64,000 nt of DNA, from NCBI RefSeq assembly GCF_000519265.1, contig NZ_KI912608.1:2513313-2577312 (forward strand), given 5' to 3'. How positions within the stretch are numbered: position 1 is the stretch's first letter; each line of letters opens with the position of its first letter. The translations under genes were made by a program, and so were the position numbers. The notes under the pieces were generated by a model. It was not told where the DNA came from. It searched no databases and worked only from the letters and a program-made list of their open reading frames with translations. Positions 2,926 to 22,394 of the stretch are shown here, piece after piece. The stretch comes from Desulfonatronum lacustre DSM 10312. GTDB lineage: Bacteria; Desulfobacterota; Desulfovibrionia; Desulfovibrionales; Desulfonatronaceae.

Positions 2926-3012
2926 CATCGAAGTCGAAATCGCCATCGAAATCGGAATGTTGCCAGAAATCGATTTCGATCAAGATTTCGATTTCGATTT
3001 CGATACCGATCC
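2926..3012. repeat. Hexamer inverted-array element A1
   Basis: The left arm holds diverged copies of ATCGAA, the right arm copies of TTCGAT, separated by a short core (GAAATCGGAA, six variable bases, then CAGAAATCGATTTCGAT). The same core appears in the element at 37568. The two arms are reverse complements, so the element can fold into a long hairpin. The right arm is translated as the C-terminus of the minus-strand glycosyltransferase, where it encodes alternating Ser and Lys. Confidence 0.85.
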
Positions 3013-3720
3013 AGAGCGCCCGTGGTTCGAAAACAAAATTGCCCTGGCGTCCCTCGACGCCAAACATATTCGAGTGGCCGCGTCGTGGGGCAGCAGATTT
3101 CGCTGGACGAGTTGCCGCAGACCCGCTTCATCGTCCACATCGGACCAGGGTCCCAAAAGACGCGGCTCCAGGCCGCTTCGAAGCAGGGCCGCCCGGCACT
3201 CGGCAAGAACCCTCGGCGTACTCCAGGGGACGGTGGTGAACAGGCCGGGTCGAAAAGCCCGCCGAGCCCACCCGAGCAGATAAAAACCGCCGTCCCGGGC
3301 CGGGCCGAGGACGACCTCACGGCGGTCCAAAATCCGGAACGCCTCGACCAGCAGGCTTCCGGGCAAATCCGGCAGGTCGCTTCCGATGAGCACCACCCGG
3401 TCGTGTCCCGCCTCGAAGGCCCGGAAAAAAGCGTCGTCCATTCTCGCGCCGAGGTCAGGTCCGACCTGGGGCTGGAACCAGCGCTCACTTCCCAGCCACG
3501 CCGCGAAATCCGCCCGCATGTCCCAGGGGGCAATGCTCAGCAGAACGCGTCCCTCCAAGGCGTCCACGGTACGCAAGACGTCCTGGACAAAGCACCGATA
3601 CAAGGCAGCGGCGTTCTCCGCTCCCAATGTCGCGACCAAGCGGGTCTTCACCCGCCCGGGTTGCGGATGCTTGATCATCACGACCACGCAGTCCGAAAGG
3701 GCGGCTGTTGAAAGGTTCAT
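2980..3720 (-). CDS. TIGR04282-family glycosyltransferase-A-fold protein (DUF2064)
   Basis: A 246-residue GT-A-fold nucleotidyl/glycosyl transferase-like protein of the DUF2064/TIGR04282 family. Diagnostic stretches are KHPQPGRVKTRL near the N-terminus (nucleotide-binding loop), VLIGSDLPDLPG, and LGPARDGGFYLLG. It overlaps the upstream TIGR04283 gene by four bases (ATGA), the usual pairing of these two families; a radical-SAM partner often found with them is absent here. The last dozen residues read SGSVSKSKSKS and are encoded by repeat element A1, so the native C-terminus has probably been replaced or extended by the element. Exact substrate unknown. Confidence 0.8.
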   Translation of the reverse strand: MNLSTAALSDCVVVMIKHPQPGRVKTRLVATLGAENAAALYRCFVQDVLRTVDALEGRVLLSIAPWDMRADFAAWLGSERWFQPQVGPDLGARMDDAFFRAFEAGHDRVVLIGSDLPDLPGSLLVEAFRILDRREVVLGPARDGGFYLLGWARRAFRPGLFTTVPWSTPRVLAECRAALLRSGLEPRLLGPWSDVDDEAGLRQLVQRNLLPHDAATRICLASRDARAILFSNHGRSGSVSKSKSKS

Positions 3721-13816: not shown

Positions 13817-14986
13817 ATGATTCCGCGACGCATCCTTCCTTTCATCCAGTCGGCTCTGAAACGTCAAGCCGCGGTGGCCCTGATCGGGCCGCGTCAGGTG
13901 GGGAAAACCACCCTGGCCTTGGCCATCGGCAATGACCTTCCATCACTGTATCTTGACCTCGAAGATCCCGGAGATCGTCAGAAGTTGGCGGAGCCGGTTC
14001 TTTTTCTGAGCAGGTATGAGGACCGTCTGGTCATCCTTGACGAGATCCACCGTGTGCCGGAACTGTTTCAGTCCTTGCGAGGCATTATCGACCAGGGACG
14101 AAACCGTGGCCGGCGAGTCGGCCGGTTTCTGCTTCTCGGCTCCGCTTCCATTGAGCTGCTCAGGCAGTCGGGTGAAAGCCTTGCCGGTCGGATCGCATAC
14201 GTGGATATGGGGCCGTTCGACGTGCTGGAGGTTGCGGATGTTCCGTCGAAACAGTTCGACCTCTGGATTCGTGGCGGTTTCCCGGACAGTTTTCTCGCTG
14301 AAGACGACCCGACAAGCCTGGCCCTGCGCAAGGATTTCATCCGGACCTACCTGGAGCGGGATGTTCCGATGTTCGGTCCGCGCCTGCCCGCGGAAACGAT
14401 GCAACGATTATGGACCATGCTTGCGCATGGGCAAGGCACGCTCCTGAACGCCTCCCGCATTGCGGCGAGCCTTGGGGTAAGCGCCCAAACCGTAACGCGG
14501 TATATCGACCTGCTCGTGGACCTGCTGCTGGTGCGCAGGCTGTCGCCCTTCCATGCCAATCTGGGCAAGCGACTCGTCAAATCACCGAAAATCTATGTGC
14601 GCGACAGCGGCCTGCTGCACGCACTACTGGACATCTCAGACCATAATGAACTTGCCGGGCATCCCGTGGCCGGCGCGAGCTGGGAGGGATTTGTGATCGA
14701 GAATCTCCTGGCCGCGGCCCCGGTTCGGACCAGGGCGAACTTCTTTCGTACGGCAGCGGGCGCCGAAATCGACCTGCTGCTGAGATTTCCCGGAGGCGAA
14801 CTCTGGGCCGTCGAAATCAAGAACAGCCTGTCCCCCAGGCTTGAAAAAGGATTCCATCTCGCCCTCGCGGACGTGAACCCTTCCCGGGCATTCGTCGTCT
14901 ATCCGGGGGAAGAACGGTATCCGATCAGTGAAACCACGGAAGTCGTCAGCCTCCATGAAATGTGCATGGTCCTGGCGGGAAGGTAA
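13817..14986 (+). CDS. DUF4143-type AAA+ ATPase
   Basis: A 389-residue ATP-binding protein of the widespread AAA_14/DUF4143 group. Walker A is GPRQVGKT (residues 24-31), Walker B is LVILDEIHRV, sensor I is FLLLGSAS. The C-terminal DUF4143 part carries YLERDVP, a winged-helix-like stretch ASLGVSAQTVTRYIDLL and the PD-(D/E)XK-like remnant EIDLLLRFPGGELWAVEIKNS. Function is unknown; these genes are scattered singly, often in mobile or defence-rich regions. A relic of a second copy lies at 21191. Confidence 0.85.
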   Translation: MIPRRILPFIQSALKRQAAVALIGPRQVGKTTLALAIGNDLPSLYLDLEDPGDRQKLAEPVLFLSRYEDRLVILDEIHRVPELFQSLRGIIDQGRNRGRRVGRFLLLGSASIELLRQSGESLAGRIAYVDMGPFDVLEVADVPSKQFDLWIRGGFPDSFLAEDDPTSLALRKDFIRTYLERDVPMFGPRLPAETMQRLWTMLAHGQGTLLNASRIAASLGVSAQTVTRYIDLLVDLLLVRRLSPFHANLGKRLVKSPKIYVRDSGLLHALLDISDHNELAGHPVAGASWEGFVIENLLAAAPVRTRANFFRTAAGAEIDLLLRFPGGELWAVEIKNSLSPRLEKGFHLALADVNPSRAFVVYPGEERYPISETTEVVSLHEMCMVLAGR

Positions 14987-15155
14987 GTTGGAATGAACGG
15001 TTGCGGGCCGCATCGCATCGGCCTGGCTGATCCGGCGGTTCATTGACCCCGCGGCCGGTTTCCGCTTTGACGCCAAGCCGGGCAGGGATGACGCGCTGCG
15101 GGCGGTTTAAACAGCTTCGGCTCTCCCTCGCAACCGCATCAAAGTGAGAAAACCA

Positions 15156-15608
15156 ATGAGACGTAAAGATCGCGCAACAACCATTGAGGAGGCAAGAATC
15201 CTCCTGGAAACGGCGCAATACGGCGTACTCTCCATGGCATCCCTGGACGGTTCGCCCCACGGCATCCCTTTGAATTTCGCCTTTGATGGCGATTGCATCT
15301 TCTTCCATTGCGCTTTGGAGGGAAAGAAGATCGATTTGCTCTCCGTGAACGGGAAGGTCTCGTTTTGCGTGGTCGGCAAGACAGAGGTGCTGCCTGAGAA
15401 GTTCGGTACAAAATACGAAAGCGTAGTTGCCGCGGGGATCGTGGAAGAGCTTTTCGACGAGGAAAAAAGGGCAGGACTGGTCTTGCTCGTCAGGAAATAT
15501 TCGCCCGACTACTTCACGCAGGGACTTGAATACATTGACGGATTCTTCGACAAGACCAAGGTTTTCAGGGTCCGCCTGGAGTCGATCACGGGCAAGGCCC
15601 GCAGATGA
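15156..15608 (+). CDS. Pyridoxamine 5'-phosphate oxidase-like flavoprotein (NimA type)
   Basis: A 150-residue split-barrel FMN-binding protein. Motifs of the NimA/PNPOx-like family are visible: ARILLETAQYGVLSMASLDGSPHGIPLNFAFDGDCIFFHCALEGKK in sections, then VSFCVVGKTEVLPEKF and KYESVVAAGIVEEL. Such proteins bind flavin or heme and may reduce nitro compounds. The ATG at 15156 is preferred to a GTG at 15144. Confidence 0.82.
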   Translation: MRRKDRATTIEEARILLETAQYGVLSMASLDGSPHGIPLNFAFDGDCIFFHCALEGKKIDLLSVNGKVSFCVVGKTEVLPEKFGTKYESVVAAGIVEELFDEEKRAGLVLLVRKYSPDYFTQGLEYIDGFFDKTKVFRVRLESITGKARR

Positions 15609-15669
15609 CGGGCACCCGGCGCAGGTGGAGCCGGGATGCGGAAAGTGACCAATAATCGATGCCGATCAT

Positions 15670-15720
15670 GATTTCGATACCGATCCGGAGCGCCCGTGGT
15701 TCGAGCACAAATTTGCCCTG
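15670..15720 (+). repeat. Fragment shared with element A1 and its flank
   Basis: 47 of 51 bases match 2996-3046, beginning in the hexamer arm (GATTTCGATACCGATCC) and continuing into non-repeat sequence (GAGCGCCCGTGGTTCGA). Both copies translate in one frame as FDTDPERPWFE followed by N/H-K-I/F-AL, so the shared part could also be the tail of a protein-coding unit; here the frame stays open to a TAG at 15763. Confidence 0.75.
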
Positions 15721-15961
15721 ATCAATGATCCAGATACGATTGCCTCCATTCCAAAAGTAGTTTAGTGCTTTCAACAGTTAGCACTATATGGGGCTTCCGA
15801 AGCCAGTACCGGAATTTGACGATGGCTTCCCGATATGCGTGATGACGATCAGGAGGGACACTTGGCCTTCAAGGCCTTCGTCAAAAATGATCACGGATGC
15901 GTCCATCATTTCCTCCGAGGTTGGCTTTATGCCCCGCACTTGTGATGATTATACGGCTGCC

Positions 15962-16001
15962 GCATAAAGCTGACTTCAGGAGAAGGCATAAAGCTGACTT
16001 C
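15962..16001 (+). repeat. Two direct 16-bp repeats (IS-end-like)
   Basis: GCATAAAGCTGACTTC occurs at 15962-15977 and 15986-16001. A 14/16 inverted match, GAGGTCAGCTTTGTGC, lies at 21471-21486 on the far side of the cassette array. These may be ends of lost insertion sequences. Confidence 0.5.
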
Positions 16002-16141
16002 GGAGTCATGAAGGATTTGACAGACTTTTCTCAATAAGCTGAAATAACGTGGCAAATGCGGAAAATTTTTTCAAAAATTGCTTGCCGAATCAGCTGGTGT
16101 TAAGGTCGGGAATTTGGAGGGGCGGATTTTTGCGAGTTCCG

Positions 16142-16147
16142 TATAAT
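16142..16147 (+). promoter_or_regulatory. Possible -10 box driving the cassette array
   Basis: A perfect TATAAT sits just before the first cassette boundary (GTTAGCC at 16154). No good -35 at 17-bp spacing is visible; TTGGAG at 16114 is too far. It would act as a Pc-like promoter if functional. Confidence 0.3.
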
Positions 16148-16193
16148 AACACTGTTAGCCTGAAGTAAAAATTCAGATTTAAGTGAGATCAAT

Positions 16194-16979
16194 ATGGAAG
16201 AGCAGTACTTAGAAATATTCCTGGAGCCAATTCGGAAGTGCATGGATTACAAGCCTAAACTAGGGAATGCCTCAGGGAATGGTGTAGACCTGCAGGGTTT
16301 CCAGGAGCTTTATGGAGCAGATCCTTTTTACGCATGGATAGGGCTTAACAGTGACTTAATGTACGCGGCGCACAAGGCGGCCGGTGGGATGACATCTATT
16401 TATCGTCAAATAGGGATTGGCTGCGAGCGGCTGTTCCGAAAGATTATTATAGATATGACAGCATATTCTGACCCTAGGCTAGCTGAGTGGTCTTATACAG
16501 CTCAAACTAGAGCGGGAGGAAATAAAAAACTGAGCCTAGATGGCAGACTTGAACTTTCGGAAATTGCAAGTGATGAGTTAAAGGGTAGAGTCGATAACTG
16601 GCTCAGGCAATACTGCGACGAACTTGGTGTTGAACATCCAAAATACGGCGTGGTTTTCGAGGTTCGACAAGGGTATAAGAGTAAAGATAGCAAACGCCAA
16701 AATGGCGATATTGATAACGCAGCCGTGGCTTGGTCAAAAGGATACTTTCCAGTTTTCGCTATTTTCTCGTCACAAATTGATAGAGATATCGTTCTTAGGT
16801 ATAGGAATAGCAGCTGTGGCATCTTGGTGGGCCAAGTTAACGATAATCCAAATATTTCCTTGTTCGCATTTTTTGATCAGATCCTTGGGTTTGATTTGGC
16901 TGGGTTCTTTGAAAGGAATTCAGATTACTTGAAAGGCGAAATAGAAAACGTGTTAGAACATCTACTGAGTGCAGAGTAA
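16194..16979 (+). CDS. Putative type II restriction endonuclease
   Basis: A 261-residue protein ending one base into the methyltransferase gene (TAATG). The centre has FEVRQGYKSKDSKRQN at residues 155-170, which resembles the E-x(n)-K core of PD-(D/E)XK endonucleases and the KSKDSKRQNGDI strand seen in several type II enzymes; it is followed by PVFAIFSSQIDRDIVLRYR. I cannot name the recognition site. Coupling with an adenine/cytosine-type methylase in one operon and one cassette is the main support for the call. No helix-turn-helix controller precedes it. Confidence 0.65.
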   Translation: MEEQYLEIFLEPIRKCMDYKPKLGNASGNGVDLQGFQELYGADPFYAWIGLNSDLMYAAHKAAGGMTSIYRQIGIGCERLFRKIIIDMTAYSDPRLAEWSYTAQTRAGGNKKLSLDGRLELSEIASDELKGRVDNWLRQYCDELGVEHPKYGVVFEVRQGYKSKDSKRQNGDIDNAAVAWSKGYFPVFAIFSSQIDRDIVLRYRNSSCGILVGQVNDNPNISLFAFFDQILGFDLAGFFERNSDYLKGEIENVLEHLLSAE

Positions 16980-18199
16980 TGACAGAAGTGGCTCAAAGGT
17001 CAGATTATACATTTAAGTTCAACAAGAATATCGGCCGTCATGGCTGGCTTAGACTAACGCCAGCATATTCGGTTAAGTTGGTGGAGGAGCTTGTTGAAGA
17101 AACTCCGCGCAACGCAATGATATTAGATCCATTTTCCGGAACAGGGACTACAGGTGTCTGTGCCGCTGAATCAGGAATGCATTCTCACCTTTTCGACATA
17201 AATCCGTTTCTTATTTGGTTTGGTAATGCCAAGTGTGCAAAGTTCAATAAATCTGATTTAGATAAGACCAGGGGCCGGGTTTATAAGTTACTTTCAAGCC
17301 TTCAGCTCCAAGCAAATGAAGAAAACTGGGTTCCGCCAATTCATAACATTGAGCGGTGGTGGTGTGGTCATACACTTCCAATACTGTCGGGGCTTAGGGC
17401 TCTTATTGTAAAGGAGTTTGGAGAGCCCGGTGAATGCAAATATGCAAATCTAGTGTGGATTTCTTTCTGTCGGCTAATCATAGAGACGTCTTCAGCAGCA
17501 TTTAATCATGTCTCTATGTCATTTAAATGTGGTGTGACTAGGTTTGAGGTAAAGCAGATTGAAAAGATTTTCTGTGATGTATTGGAGCTTATTTTAGAGA
17601 GCGCCAAGTACGAGTTCCCGGGTACAGTTTCAGTTTTTTATGCTGACTCTCGCGAAATGCCAAGTATCGACGACTGCACATATGACCATGTCATAACATC
17701 GCCGCCTTATCCTAATAGAATGAGCTATATAAGGGAGCTTCGTCCATATATGTATTGGACAAAGTTCCTTAATGAGGCGAAAGAGGCTGGGCAGCTCGAC
17801 TGGAAGGCAATTGGTGGCACTTGGGGTACCGCAACCAGCAAGCTAAAAGAATGGTGTGCAGACAACGTTATCTTGCCAGAAGAGTTGTATATAACGTGCG
17901 AAAAGATCAGCCGGTGTGAGAATAAAAATGCAGACTTAATGGGAAGGTATGTGCATAAATACTTTCATGATATGCATCTACACTTTGCGGCGCTTAGGCA
18001 AAGGTTAAGCGTGGATGCGAAAGTAGATTACATAGTTGGAAACTCCACCTTCTACGGCGTACATGTTAATTCGGAGTCTTTGTTTGAAGAGTCACTTCGT
18101 ATGCTTGGTTATCAAGAAATTCATTCAAGAGTGGTAAGAAAACGCAACAGCAAAAAAGAGCTATTCGAGTTTTGCGTCACTGCCAGATGGTATGGCTAA
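16979..18199 (+). CDS. DNA methyltransferase (N4-cytosine/N6-adenine type)
   Basis: A 406-residue AdoMet-dependent DNA methylase. Motif X-like GWLRLTPAYSVKLVEELVEE comes first, then motif I DPFSGTGTTG (residues 50-59), a variable region of about 150 residues likely to be the target-recognition part, and motif IV TSPPYPNRMSY with SPPY at 241-244. The SPPY form is most often seen in N4-cytosine enzymes. The order X-I-TRD-IV corresponds to the alpha-like arrangement. Its stop codon TAA is formed by the R'' end of attC1 (GGCTAAC). It presumably protects host sites from the upstream nuclease. Confidence 0.85.
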   Translation: MTEVAQRSDYTFKFNKNIGRHGWLRLTPAYSVKLVEELVEETPRNAMILDPFSGTGTTGVCAAESGMHSHLFDINPFLIWFGNAKCAKFNKSDLDKTRGRVYKLLSSLQLQANEENWVPPIHNIERWWCGHTLPILSGLRALIVKEFGEPGECKYANLVWISFCRLIIETSSAAFNHVSMSFKCGVTRFEVKQIEKIFCDVLELILESAKYEFPGTVSVFYADSREMPSIDDCTYDHVITSPPYPNRMSYIRELRPYMYWTKFLNEAKEAGQLDWKAIGGTWGTATSKLKEWCADNVILPEELYITCEKISRCENKNADLMGRYVHKYFHDMHLHFAALRQRLSVDAKVDYIVGNSTFYGVHVNSESLFEESLRMLGYQEIHSRVVRKRNSKKELFEFCVTARWYG

Positions 18200-18264
18200 C
18201 AAAGCGCTGCACTCGGACAAAGTTTCCGCTGCGCTTCAACTTTGCCGGTGAGCGCGGCGTAGCC
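18195..18264 (+). repeat. attC site 1
   Basis: Starts GCTAACA, ends GCGGCGTAGCC. Inner arms CACTCGGACAAAGTT and AACTTTGCCGGTGAG pair with a few unpaired bases, the extrahelical-base pattern of attC. The right end lacks one T of the expected GTTAGCC, so the crossover triplet is damaged; excision of this junction may be impaired. Confidence 0.8.
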
Positions 18265-18280
18265 AAAATATGGGAGTCCC

Positions 18281-18646
18281 ATGAGCCCTAATAAATATAT
18301 CGTTGTCAGCTCACATGAGAGTGAGTTCCCTAAGCCCATCACCTTTAAAAAAGGTGATCCTCTTCTTGTAGGTGAAGAATACGAAGGGTCTGAGGGTTGG
18401 GATAACTGGTTCCTCTGCACTACACCTGGGCAAGAGCCCGGCTGGGTTCCTGGTCAGATTATCGAGCGTATCGAGAACTCACACGCTAGAGCACTTGATG
18501 ACTACACGGCAAAAGAGCTAAATGTTCTGGAAGGAGAGCTACTCATTGGTTCAAGGGTTTTGAATGGCTGGCTATGGTGTGAAAAATCGGCCAGTACAGA
18601 ATCAGGGTGGGTGCCATTAGAGAACCTTAAAGAGGTTGCGGAGTGA
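18281..18646 (+). CDS. Double SH3-domain protein (cassette 2)
   Basis: A 121-residue protein made of two SH3-like folds: residues 1-60 (YIVVSSHESEFPKPITFKKGD, then GWVPGQII) and 66-118 (RALDDYTAKELNVLEGEL, then GWVPLENL). Both show the eukaryote-like ALDDY...L.. and W..GWVP pattern. No enzymatic domain or signal peptide. As a cassette-borne gene it could be an adaptor, an immunity-type or a binding protein; that is inference. Confidence 0.78.
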   Translation: MSPNKYIVVSSHESEFPKPITFKKGDPLLVGEEYEGSEGWDNWFLCTTPGQEPGWVPGQIIERIENSHARALDDYTAKELNVLEGELLIGSRVLNGWLWCEKSASTESGWVPLENLKEVAE

Positions 18647-18653
18647 ATTCGTG

Positions 18654-18728
18654 GCTAACAAGGCCATCAAATTTGCTCCCTGCTGTCGCCGGACGCTCGT
18701 TCCTCGCGCCGTTTATGGCGGCGTTAGC
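18654..18728 (+). repeat. attC site 2
   Basis: About 75 bases with perfect complementary ends GCTAAC and GTTAGC. Inner arms GGCCATCAAA and CGTTTATGGC pair, and the middle is GC-rich. This is the most canonical of the three sites. Confidence 0.88.
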
Positions 18729-18798
18729 ATGCACTATGTCGGTAGTTCAGTACGCATGAATAGATTTCATATTACACCATCAACGTCAGGTAAATATT

Positions 18799-19884
18799 AT
18801 GTATAGCTTAAGAACTAATATAGGTACCGGAGATATAGTGTTAATTAGGGGGCCAGCTAAACACAGCAAGATAATATCTAAAGTCACCAAAGGCCATTTT
18901 TCACATGCCTATCTAGCTCTAGGTGAGTCACAGATGATAGAGGCAATAGGTAGCGGTGTTCAATATACTAGCTGCTTGAGGTTTGCTGTAGAAGATAAAT
19001 CAAATATAGCAGTTTTAAGGCCATTGTTCAAAGACGACTCTCAAGCTCATGAAGTGCGTTCAAATATAAGGGATATTGCGAAGGGACACCAAAGCAGAGG
19101 CTATGATTTTATTGGTGCGATCCTAGCAGTATTGGAAAGAAAGAAGACAAAAAAATCAGAGAAATATTTTTGCTCTCAACTCGTCGCTAGTATTTTTCGG
19201 GAGGCTGGCTTTCCCTTGTTTGAGAAGGAAGACCACCTTGTCACACCAAATGACTTTTTAAGATGCTCGCTCCTTTTTGATATCACAAATGATTCAGTAG
19301 GCCAAGTGCCAGATTATCTCGCCAAGCGGAAGATTAAGAACGGAATACGAATACCACTTCTCGACAAAGGAGGGGAAACAACATCTGAAAACGCTTTATT
19401 ACTTAGAAAGCTTCTTAAGAAATCAAAGAATATCTTTTTACAGCATGGTCTAAAACCGCCAAACAAAATGTATGATCTTGTTGATGCTATAACCGATCCG
19501 GCGAATTTAAGCTTTGCGGCAGAGCTCGATAGCAAGATCACAAAATTATACGACGAACTAAACATTAATAGTCATCTAGCATCACAGTGTACAGGTGCGC
19601 TAGGCGATATGGAAGAGTTATGGAAAGAACTGAACGAATATGGCCAGCCATTCGCAATAGACGAGATGAAGTGGATTATCGACAGATTAAATTTATTGAA
19701 GCTCCGATTAACTGATTTAAGGGAATACGAGCATATGTATGCGTTAGTTTACGAGACAAACAAACTTAGTTATGCTTGTAGGCAACGGGATTACTATAGG
19801 ATCATTATAAAAAATGTAATAGAGGTAGCGGCTGACTTAAATAATAGAATTGACTTAATAAAAAAGTATCTGGATGAATGCTAA
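18799..19884 (+). CDS. Permuted NlpC/P60 (YiiX/YebB-like) hydrolase with helical tail (cassette 3)
   Basis: A 361-residue protein. Residues 8-165 look like a permuted papain-fold NlpC/P60 domain: GDIVLIRGP, KGHFSHAYLALG with His36, MIEAIGSGVQ, then the Cys motif YFCSQLVASIFREAGF with Cys125. This order (His before Cys) is the YiiX/YebB type, which acts on lipids or peptides rather than on cell-wall stems. The remaining 190 residues are predicted helical with no recognised family (EELWKELNEYGQPFAIDEMKW). Strongly AT-rich. The natural substrate is unknown; an N-terminal signal is absent, so a cytoplasmic role is likely. Confidence 0.75.
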   Translation: MYSLRTNIGTGDIVLIRGPAKHSKIISKVTKGHFSHAYLALGESQMIEAIGSGVQYTSCLRFAVEDKSNIAVLRPLFKDDSQAHEVRSNIRDIAKGHQSRGYDFIGAILAVLERKKTKKSEKYFCSQLVASIFREAGFPLFEKEDHLVTPNDFLRCSLLFDITNDSVGQVPDYLAKRKIKNGIRIPLLDKGGETTSENALLLRKLLKKSKNIFLQHGLKPPNKMYDLVDAITDPANLSFAAELDSKITKLYDELNINSHLASQCTGALGDMEELWKELNEYGQPFAIDEMKWIIDRLNLLKLRLTDLREYEHMYALVYETNKLSYACRQRDYYRIIIKNVIEVAADLNNRIDLIKKYLDEC

Positions 19885-19986
19885 CAAGGGCATGCACACG
19901 GACACCGAACCACGCGGGGCACATATGGTGACTTCCAGTGTGGCTCCTTGGCCGCGTGGTTCGGTGCCGGTGATGCCCGGCGTTCC
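19880..19986 (+). repeat. attC site 3
   Basis: About 107 bases from GCTAACA to GGCGTTCCC. Long inner arms (GGGCATGCACACGGACACCGAACC region against GGTTCGGTGCCGGTGATGCCC, quoted in parts) pair well. The last bases after the crossover G are TTCCCGC, that is, flanking chromosomal sequence, as expected for the final cassette. Confidence 0.82.
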
Positions 19987-20012
19987 CGCGACGCTTCCGC
20001 GTCGCGGGAACG
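19981..20012 (+). repeat. Perfect 14-bp stem hairpin at the right array boundary
   Basis: CGTTCCCGCGACGC and GCGTCGCGGGAACG separated by TTCC. The first bases overlap the attC3 right end. With no T-run it is not a standard terminator. Confidence 0.75.
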
Positions 20013-20108
20013 GGCCGGGGCTGACTGCGTCCAGTCGGTTGCCCTCGCAGCGGAAGCCGCGTCGAGAATGTTTACTTATACGTCAGGACATCTTGAATAG
20101 GAGCATGC

Positions 20109-20798
20109 ATGCTTCAAGAAGCCCGCGACACACTCCGCGAGTTCGCCAGCGAAACGGACGCGAAGCATCTGCAACGGTTTTTCAAGACCAGTCCCGGTGA
20201 ATACGGAGAAGGAGACCGGTTCCTCGGCGTCCGTGTCCCCGCCACCCGCAAGGTCGCCCGGATGTTCCGGGCAATGCCCCTGGCCGACGCGCAAACCCTC
20301 CTGACCTCGGAAATACACGAGGAACGTCTCCTGGCCCTGCTGATTCTGATCGGTCGGTATCAGCGCGGGACCGCCGACCAGAAGCGGGAAATCTTCGATC
20401 TGTATCTCGCCAACACGCGCCATATCAACAACTGGGACCTCGTCGACGTCTCAGCCGAGCACGTGGTCGGCGCCCATCTTTGGGACAAAAGCCGCGCCCC
20501 GCTCTCCAACCTGGCCCGCTCCGCCGACCTCTGGGAACGGCGCATCGCGGTCATGGCCACCTTTCACTTCATCAAGATGAACCAGTTCGACGAGACGCTG
20601 CGGATCGCCGAACTCCTCCTTTCCGACTCCCACGACCTGATCCACAAGGCCGTGGGCTGGATGCTCCGGGAAATCGGCAAGCGGGATCTGGACGTGGAAG
20701 AGGATTTCCTGCGACGCCACCACCTGCACATGCCCAGAACCATGCTCCGGACGCCATCGAGAAATTTCCCGAGGACAAACGACGCCGGTATTTGCTGA
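20109..20798 (+). CDS. alkD: DNA alkylation repair protein, AlkD-like, frameshifted 3' end
   Basis: A 229-residue HEAT-repeat DNA glycosylase-like protein. Conserved parts are FLGVRVPATRKVAR, HEERLLALLILI, INNWDLVDVSAEHVVGAHL and HKAVGWMLREIGKRD, matching AlkD enzymes that remove alkylated purines. The family normally ends with MPRTMLRYAIEKFPE and a basic tail. Here frame 1 becomes RTPSRNFPRTNDAGIC after MPRTMLR, while the next frame reads DAIEKFPEDKRRRYLLKG and stops at 20824. One base is missing near 20750. Either a recent frameshift or a sequencing error. Confidence 0.8.
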   Translation: MLQEARDTLREFASETDAKHLQRFFKTSPGEYGEGDRFLGVRVPATRKVARMFRAMPLADAQTLLTSEIHEERLLALLILIGRYQRGTADQKREIFDLYLANTRHINNWDLVDVSAEHVVGAHLWDKSRAPLSNLARSADLWERRIAVMATFHFIKMNQFDETLRIAELLLSDSHDLIHKAVGWMLREIGKRDLDVEEDFLRRHHLHMPRTMLRTPSRNFPRTNDAGIC

Positions 20799-21190
20799 AA
20801 GGGCGGGGTGATGGCAGGTGTTGACCGCATCGCCACTTGGACTGCGCATCGCATTGAGTAAAATTACTCAATAAAAAAAACGCAAAATCATTCGCGCATT
20901 GTGGCCTGAATCCGGCTTCAATCCTTCACCATGATCATCAGTCTGTTGCACCATGTCGATATCTTTTTTACAAGATTTCAGCCAAGTTCAACGCTCGCCG
21001 AAATAATTTGGGTTCATCCGGCTGGAGCGTACTTATGAAAAATGAACCGCCCGCTTCGCTCAAGGCCCGGAGCACGCCAAGAAAATATTTTTTAACCTTC
21101 CGCTGGAATGATGCGGAAGCCAAAAGATTTCACGCCTGACGGCGATGATTCTTCCTCCCGACAGGGAGGGTCCGTGCGGGCAGGCGGTTG
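20799..21190. other. Intergenic debris
   Basis: About 390 bases after alkD. It holds a small palindrome ATTGAGTAAAATTACTCAAT at 20853-20872, followed by an A-run rather than a T-run, so not a plus-strand terminator. Otherwise only untraceable sequence leading into the DUF4143 relic. Confidence 0.4.
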
Positions 21191-21352
21191 CTGGCCATCG
21201 AGATCAAAAGCGGTCGCCGCCGCGACGCCCTGCCCGGCATGGCCGCCTTCGTCGAAGCCTTCCAGCCGGACCGCACCCTGCTGGTCGGCGGCGACGGTAT
21301 CAAGCTGGAAGCCTTTCTGTCGCGTTCGGTTATGGAGTGGGTGCAGGCGTGA
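21191..21352 (+). pseudogene. C-terminal relic of a DUF4143 ATPase
   Basis: The frame reads LAIEIKSGRRRDALPGMAAF, then VEAFQPDRTLLVGGDGIKLE and AFLSRSVMEWVQA before TGA at 21350. This is the usual end of DUF4143 ATPases (AIEIKSG and LLVGGDGI-LE motifs). Nothing upstream restores the ATPase domain, so it is a truncated remnant. It differs from the C-terminus of the intact gene at 13817, thus not a simple duplicate. Confidence 0.72.
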
Positions 21353-21703
21353 GGGCTTTGGGTGCCACCGTGCAACTCGTCGAGGGCGTCGCGGCGTGGC
21401 AATATCTTTCTTGCAAGGGGTCCACCATACTCTGCGACGTCTAATAAAAATCTCGCCGCCCATTGCACGTGAGGTCAGCTTTGTGCATGTTTATTTCGTG
21501 TACTCTTCCAGTGCTGTAGTATATTGCTGACTTTGAGGGGGAGTAAAAAAAGCTAGCCTCTGGCGCGGGAGAGGGCGGTGGAGATGATAATGGATTTGCA
21601 TACGGGATGTTGCGAATAGGAATGATTCAGCTTGATAAAAGGCTTGAGTGATCGTGAGATAAGATGGTGAGAAATCTTGTTATACCTATGGAGAGTGACG
21701 TCT
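21353..21703. other. Gene-poor spacer with IS-end-like repeat
   Basis: 350 bases. GAGGTCAGCTTTGTGC at 21471-21486 is an inverted near-match to the direct repeats at 15962 and 15986. No gene seen. Confidence 0.4.
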
Positions 21704-22066: not shown

Positions 22067-22394
22067 CCTAAGTTTCCTGATTATGCGTTGAATGGGAAAA
22101 AGGGCGTATCGTGCGCCGAGGTATCACCGGCTGGACCGGACTTCGGCCAGTCCTTCCGCAAGCGAGCTTGCTCCAGCACAGGCCAAAGCCGATCAGGCTC
22201 GAGACATTATCCGGACGGGCGAAAGGACCTCATAGCCATTCTTCCCCCAATTGACGCCAATAAACTGATAAGATGGGCTAAATTTCTTCAAATTGGCACC
22301 TTAGAGGCGCATAGGCGCACAAAGATTTCCATTTGAAAAAGCAGGCGGACGGGAGATTTCGAGGTTGAAGGTGCATGACAAAGGACGGCGGCAA
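22067..22394. other. Spacer before dinD
   Basis: About 330 bases, no gene recognised. AAGGA at 22381 serves as ribosome-binding site for dinD. Confidence 0.4.

Follow-up and report, generated by a model that had tools for sequence, protein, structure and literature searches.

Restriction-modification (R-M) systems reportedly occur on super-integrons, where Vaisvila et al. 2001, as cited in PMC12707154, are said to have found them. That such systems are carried as integron gene cassettes is stated in the available part of PMC9892861, and the view that integrons serve as stores of anti-phage defence has been developed by Darracq et al. 2025 and others, according to the available part of PMC12409362; restriction terms do not occur in PMC7370490. 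The locus described here lies in a window of 64,000 nucleotides (the whole stretch of DNA analysed, positions 2513313-2577312 of the 3.76-Mb genome G000, in one contig). It resembles the cassettes covered by the available part of PMC9892861 in that R-M genes stand inside an attC-bounded cassette, but differs in that an empty attI, the loss of intI and another host that has the same cassette beside an attI of its own are all visible, and in that the restriction enzyme (R) has no match in Pfam, NCBIfam or, by sequence, PDB. With the defence stores treated in the available part of PMC12409362 it shares a small two-gene defence unit in a cassette, as well as platforms of a same-genus genome in which a CBASS cyclase and a TIR-like protein are found, whereas here short arrays stand at several dispersed attI leaders instead of in one large array. 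The PADLOC models closest to R (REase_II PDLC03512, a full-length match) and to the methylase M (MTase_II PDLC03224 and PDLC03306, weaker matches) name no enzyme or target site.

R-M cassettes being known, that of the window appears to be a further example, with unusually complete evidence for its insertion. What makes it attractive is a readable history, in which one cassette stands at two attI in different lineages, next to an empty site and in an array frozen after intI loss; it also makes testable how an R-first R-M pair can establish itself when it arrives without a promoter. Our preferred reading, to which we assign a probability of about 0.8, is that an intact type II R-M system came in as a gene cassette at attI, that intI was lost thereafter, and that the pair would represent a portable, promoter-dependent defence unit. 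The locus is built up as follows (the slash in G/TT marks the recombination point; L123 is a locus of the same-genus genome G005).

15727..15779, minus strand: 5'-end remnant of a lost intI, 81% over 53 bp to L123 9657-9709
15800..16154, plus strand: attI-side leader of a chromosomal integron, ending at the recombination G
16142..16147, plus strand: TATAAT box, candidate -10 of the cassette promoter (Pc), predicted from the sequence only
16155..18259, plus strand: R-M gene cassette, first in the array, 2105 bp, left core G/TT, right attC
16194..16979, plus strand: R, predicted type II restriction endonuclease, 261 aa, PADLOC PDLC03512 5.2e-73
16979..18199, plus strand: M, predicted SPPY-type DNA methyltransferase (N4-C or N6-A), 406 aa, PF01555 3.8e-8, over cut-off
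18194..18265, plus strand: attC of the R-M cassette (attC1), R'' box holding the M stop, R' core one base short
18260..18723, plus strand: second cassette, ORF 18281-18646, SH3-domain protein, 121 aa, PF07653 1.7e-12
18653..18729, plus strand: attC of the second cassette (attC2), boxes GGCTAAC...GTTAGC, arms GCCAT-C-AAA and TTTATGGC
18724..19982, plus strand: third cassette, ORF 18799-19884, papain-like C92 peptidase relative, 361 aa, PF05708 1.1e-7
19880..19988, plus strand: attC of the third cassette (attC3), fold of the bottom strand with z -5.66, equalled by 0 of 200 shuffles
19983..20068, plus strand: gene-less palindromic unit, left part, marking where the insertion ends on the right, 93% to L123 from 10325
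22126..22196, plus strand: right part of such a unit, some 2 kb past the left part, 94% to positions 89-159 of the unit

The R-M cassette is bounded by a core G at 16154, which is itself excluded, and a core G at 18259, and the single cassette of about 2.1 kb that the first-pass annotation had described is borne out by the 2105 bp between them. It has the edges of an integron cassette, with G/TT cores and a 3' attC, the right core being one base short (GTAGCC, compared to GTTAGCC). The two-gene unit with a one-base overlap was confirmed as well: the ORFs of 261 and 406 aa meet in TAATG, base 16979 being both the last of the R stop codon TAA and the first of the M start codon ATG. The methylase stop, earlier thought to be formed by attC, is indeed the TAA at 18197-18199 inside the attC box GGCTAAC (18194-18200). 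A stop codon inside attC is a common arrangement among cassettes.

The bottom-strand fold of attC1 has a z score of -2.96, with 1 of 200 shuffles as good, and its arms, drawn by eye, are GCGCT-G-CAC-T-CGG-A-CAAAGTT and AACTTTG-CCG-GTG-AGCGC, with three extrahelical (bulged) bases. The 21-nt arms of attC3 are 90% complementary. The fold of attC2 is not significant (z -1.13, 25 of 200 shuffles as good), and this site is therefore assigned from its boxes alone. The array, in the order R-M, SH3 and papain-like C92, ends with the core G at 19982, and the GC fraction is 0.39-0.47 in 16000-19999 as compared to 0.52-0.62 in the adjoining stretches 14000-15999 and 20000-21499. A home-made attC scanner separated real attC poorly from shuffles (for the attC of locus L006, described below, 2 of 40 shuffles reached its score). 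The non-standard cores of attC1 and attC3 also made the scanner overlook these two sites, and no use was made of what it returned. Rfam gave 0 matches on the 64-kb window.

The claim that a complete R-M pair sits in one cassette is supported. The nuclease call comes from PDLC03512 together with fold matches that are mostly to PD-(D/E)XK nucleases. The PADLOC alignment covers residues 3-260 and thus the whole length of R, and the model is matched by all 27 members of the R alignment, in which D116, E156 and K162 are invariant. Sequence searches with R gave no match in Pfam, NCBIfam, PHROG or PDB; the lack of a Pfam or NCBIfam model and of a solved relative by sequence adds to the interest of this family. 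The AlphaFold model of R is confident (pLDDT 89.6, pTM 0.88). In the fold check proposed for the 261-residue protein, PD-(D/E)XK nucleases lead the VIA structural matches, at Z values of 9.2-7.0 (Can2 included) of which those of 8-9 are near the level reached by models without a clear match, and Foldseek gave no match for the model at E<=0.001. The best VIA matches are VC1899 (Z 9.2, rmsd 4.9, 154 residues aligned), Cdn1 (8.3, 5.7, 162), EcoO109I (8.1, 4.8, 185) and PspGI (7.8, 5.6, 162). R belongs to a type II restriction-enzyme family, with a predicted fold that is probably like that of PD-(D/E)XK nucleases.

A methyltransferase with SAM and catalytic motifs stands beside R, as indicated by PF01555, by the conserved motifs DPFSGT and TSPPYPNR, and by adjacency of the two genes in 18 of 29 loci. 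M matches PDLC03224 and PDLC03306 at 6.7e-26 and 3.3e-24, respectively; by sequence its best PDB match (0.0037) is a cytosine-N4 methyltransferase, and a fold search returned general SAM methyltransferases (best E 3.2e-4).

The 29 loci were obtained by a search with R in one genome per species, and the 18 are those where M lies directly downstream. The distance between the aligned ends of R and M is 0-21 nt in the 18 tabulated pairs (window included, L023 left out). In a tree of 37 R sequences, all 26 that have a downstream SPPY methylase form one clade with support 100/99; the tree was built without L023 and L034, whose R frame is broken, without the partial L031 and L032, and without L191, which nearly duplicates L190, and the C5 label of L187 and L188 in it was taken from the motif, not from Pfam. 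Distant relatives of R have a C5-cytosine methylase directly upstream (PF00145 in 9 of 9 proteins tested); the loci L024-L028, L032-L034 and L057 have this gene in place of the downstream SPPY methylase. Two planctomycete R stand after an SPPY methylase. Within one R family, the methylase partner thus appears to have been exchanged between m5C and SPPY types, and such a change of partner is useful for finding the target site. It makes a cytosine in the target likely, provided that R relatives with different methylases share their target, and our best guess is a cytosine-containing site that would receive N4-C methylation by M.

In genome-wide searches within the phylum to which the window's genome belongs, 3 of 395 genomes have R. 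The figure was 13 of 292 for the phylum of G490, with 7 matches at E<1e-100 and weak ones otherwise, and 6 of 369 for the class of G483; tblastn with R found none in phage and plasmid records. IntI over the cut-off is present in 9 of 20 genomes with an R of the SPPY-downstream clade and, among relatives of the window's genome, in 9 of 101, a comparison that is no test because the taxa differ. A stray pair of ORFs is ruled out by the relatives, by purifying selection and by the tree. An adaptation of the whole R-M family to cassettes could be suspected from a GTTAGC that precedes R by 29-47 nt in L010, L014 and L022, but an upstream attC fold is significant in 0 of these 3 (z -0.11, -0.98 and -0.78), and the downstream folds in L010 and L012 are not significant either (z -1.36 and -0.42).

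The only second firm case of the cassette is locus L006 of a Syntrophaceae MAG, where it has other flanks and where R and M are 94% and 91% identical to those of the window at the amino acid level. The block common to both corresponds to window positions 16142-18260 (88% nucleotide identity) and coincides with the cassette. Between the window and L006, R and M are under purifying selection, with dN/dS values of 0.037 and 0.066. In L006 the cassette is preceded by a leader, the junction reading ATAGATCTATATAAACAATG/TTAGCC, and this leader is also found after intI in L089 of the same MAG, joined there to another first cassette. Since the leader adjoins intI in L089, the R-M cassette stands first at an attI in the Syntrophaceae MAG too; that L006 and L089 have the same attI, like the attC assignments in L006, L089 and the G005 loci, was judged by eye. 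The attC at L006 8001-8072 has an inner stem CAATTTT and AAAATTG, of which the bases differ from those in the window with the pairing kept. The cassette thus moves as a discrete block, being the same in both hosts, with different flanks and beside its own attI in L006.

How the cassette entered the window can be read from same-genus G005. Window positions 15800-16156 align to L123 9963-10326, beside intI, with 84.7% identity over 365 bp, and the homology ends at G/TT. In L123 the leader is directly followed by TTCCCGCGACGC, which in the window is found after the third attC (19983-20068, 93%). When the flanks of the window are joined and compared to L123 9963-10410, 387 of 449 columns are identical in an uninterrupted alignment that is best at zero shift. 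Because the joined flanks reproduce the uninterrupted G005 sequence, the three cassettes were inserted exactly at the attI point. The exact junctions and the empty site point to insertion driven by IntI, which would leave the R-M cassette and the two further ones placed, as they are, exactly with the attI core G on one side and the gene-less unit on the other; insertion and excision of the R-M cassette would then both be IntI reactions. The three may have come together or one by one. Entry of the array at a secondary (attG-like) chromosomal site, as suggested by the odd right junction, is ruled out, because the counterpart of the left flank in G005 is attI, and that of the right flank is the sequence after attI.

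The matching stretch L123 9657-9709 is the start of the intI gene of G005 (L123 8407-9684, minus strand). Searching the window flanks by tblastn with six IntI revealed no remnant beyond the 5' trace, and in the window's genome 0 matches exceeded the TIGR02249 cut-off. Five weaker stretches below it lie at three loci far from the window, in genes of 331, 326 and 359 aa, of which we take the first two to be XerC/D-like. IntI is present in 3 of 7 same-genus genomes (G001, G005 and G006). The window thus lacks the intI gene of a complete integron and holds, with IntI absent, two attC with low-energy folds and one recognized by its boxes. This agrees with a CALIN as defined in the available part of PMC12444791 (several attC, integrase absent), with the difference that the attI side is still present in the window, which makes the array a relic of a complete integron instead of a stray attC cluster. 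The array is frozen because intI was deleted, and since the integrase is absent from the genome it cannot be lost through its own recombinase; what the deletion has left is a three-cassette array with the R-M pair first. A 51-bp repeat (92%) occurs at 15670-15720, just past the intI trace and at the likely deletion joint, and at 2996-3046. The gene beside the array, for DNA alkylation repair (20109-20798), is a second copy with 91% protein identity to G000:C1 2654610-2655275, and the homology between the two copies starts at the start codon.

For expression the pair would depend on the platform, since the 39 nt between the cassette edge and the ATG are too few to hold a separate promoter. The TATAAT box ends 7 bases ahead of the recombination G, and other leader copies have CATAAT or TATAAT. 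Expression of R and M is something that we only infer, because a two-hexamer scan gave no promoter at this box. The pair would be transcribed from the attI-side promoter as one message with R first, and translation of M would restart at the TAATG overlap. M would methylate the target site in host DNA and R would cut incoming DNA that is unmethylated. Carried from one host to another, distantly related one, a cassette of this kind could serve as a complete defence unit that becomes functional once it is placed beside a platform promoter.

The same genes can also be read as an addiction module that holds the array, with cells that lose it being killed by residual R cutting unprotected DNA, as the first-pass annotation had proposed. 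The available part of PMC2654758 presents this role as established for toxin-antitoxin cassettes and as proposed for R-M genes, and it would fit with R and M being open and under purifying selection, but such selection is equally expected from defence. Since IntI is absent, there is also less need for post-segregational stabilisation, the array being not excisable and having merely three cassettes, and we consider addiction unlikely. That the pair is a decaying passenger, silent or near breaking and kept by chance in a dead integron, might be concluded from the loss of intI, the damaged attC1 core and the split unit at the right edge. Nevertheless, both ORFs are open, dN/dS relative to L006 is low (a value that is silent on the time since intI loss), and the pair occupies the first position, adjoining the TATAAT box, so decay also seems improbable to us.

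We attach very little probability to arrival of the block by homologous recombination or with another mobile element, its attC-like ends being incidental. The imperfect core of attC1 and the weak fold of attC2 would agree with such a route, but both junctions are exactly G/TT, the empty site is uninterrupted in G005, and the same cassette stands at another attI in L006.

The 355-bp leader is itself present in six copies in G000, all ending at the core G, the other five being 85 to 73% identical to that of the window; a seventh match is a 54-bp fragment.

Leader copies in G000:C1: 2529112 (window), 465050, 1045173, 2808089, 3491316 (minus strand), 1098841

The gene that comes after the leader differs from copy to copy. 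Homology between pairs of copies mostly stops 2-8 bases past the G, a few alignments extending to +15 to +33, and sequence around the intI start is present in 5 of the 6 copies. In G005, a gene-less palindromic unit of about 170 nt, consisting of a hairpin and an attC-like fold, occurs at attI and attC points; in the window its two parts (19983-20068 and 22126-22196) are split, 2 kb apart.

Palindromic units in G005: L123 10325, 11192; L181 2084, 3190, 4095; L182 1669, 2324, 3975; L183 2402; L184 2146

All 10 full units in the G005 loci examined start at G/TT; three of them were assigned to attI-like leaders (L123, L182 and L184) and six to positions after attC-like sites, that of L183 being the tenth. 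Each is followed by another G/TT, where the next gene begins in nine cases (L183 left out). It can tentatively be envisaged, although we would not count on it, that G000 contains a dispersed frozen integron with six leaders and different captured genes, that the units of G005 alternate with cassettes, and that leaders and units are multiplied parts. If so, one integron would have become a set of separate promoter-driven defence sites, and multiplied attI leaders and palindromic units, if confirmed, would alter the view that an integron is a single platform in a genome. Neither attI leaders in multiple copies nor palindromic units placed between cassettes are described in the accessible parts of the literature searched, which is weak evidence.

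Behind leaders or units of this type, defence-like genes were seen in several loci: a CBASS cyclase (L182 4167-5045, 2.1e-143), a TIR-like ThsB (L181 2282-3139, 5e-7), a PD-T7-4 match (L123 10516-11124, 4.9e-8) and a PDC-S59 match (L215 1431-2687, 4.1e-16). The Syntrophaceae MAG has a unit that is unrelated in sequence and has the same layout, after each of the three attC seen.

Units in the Syntrophaceae MAG: L006 8067-8199, 8672-8799; L089 11874-11999
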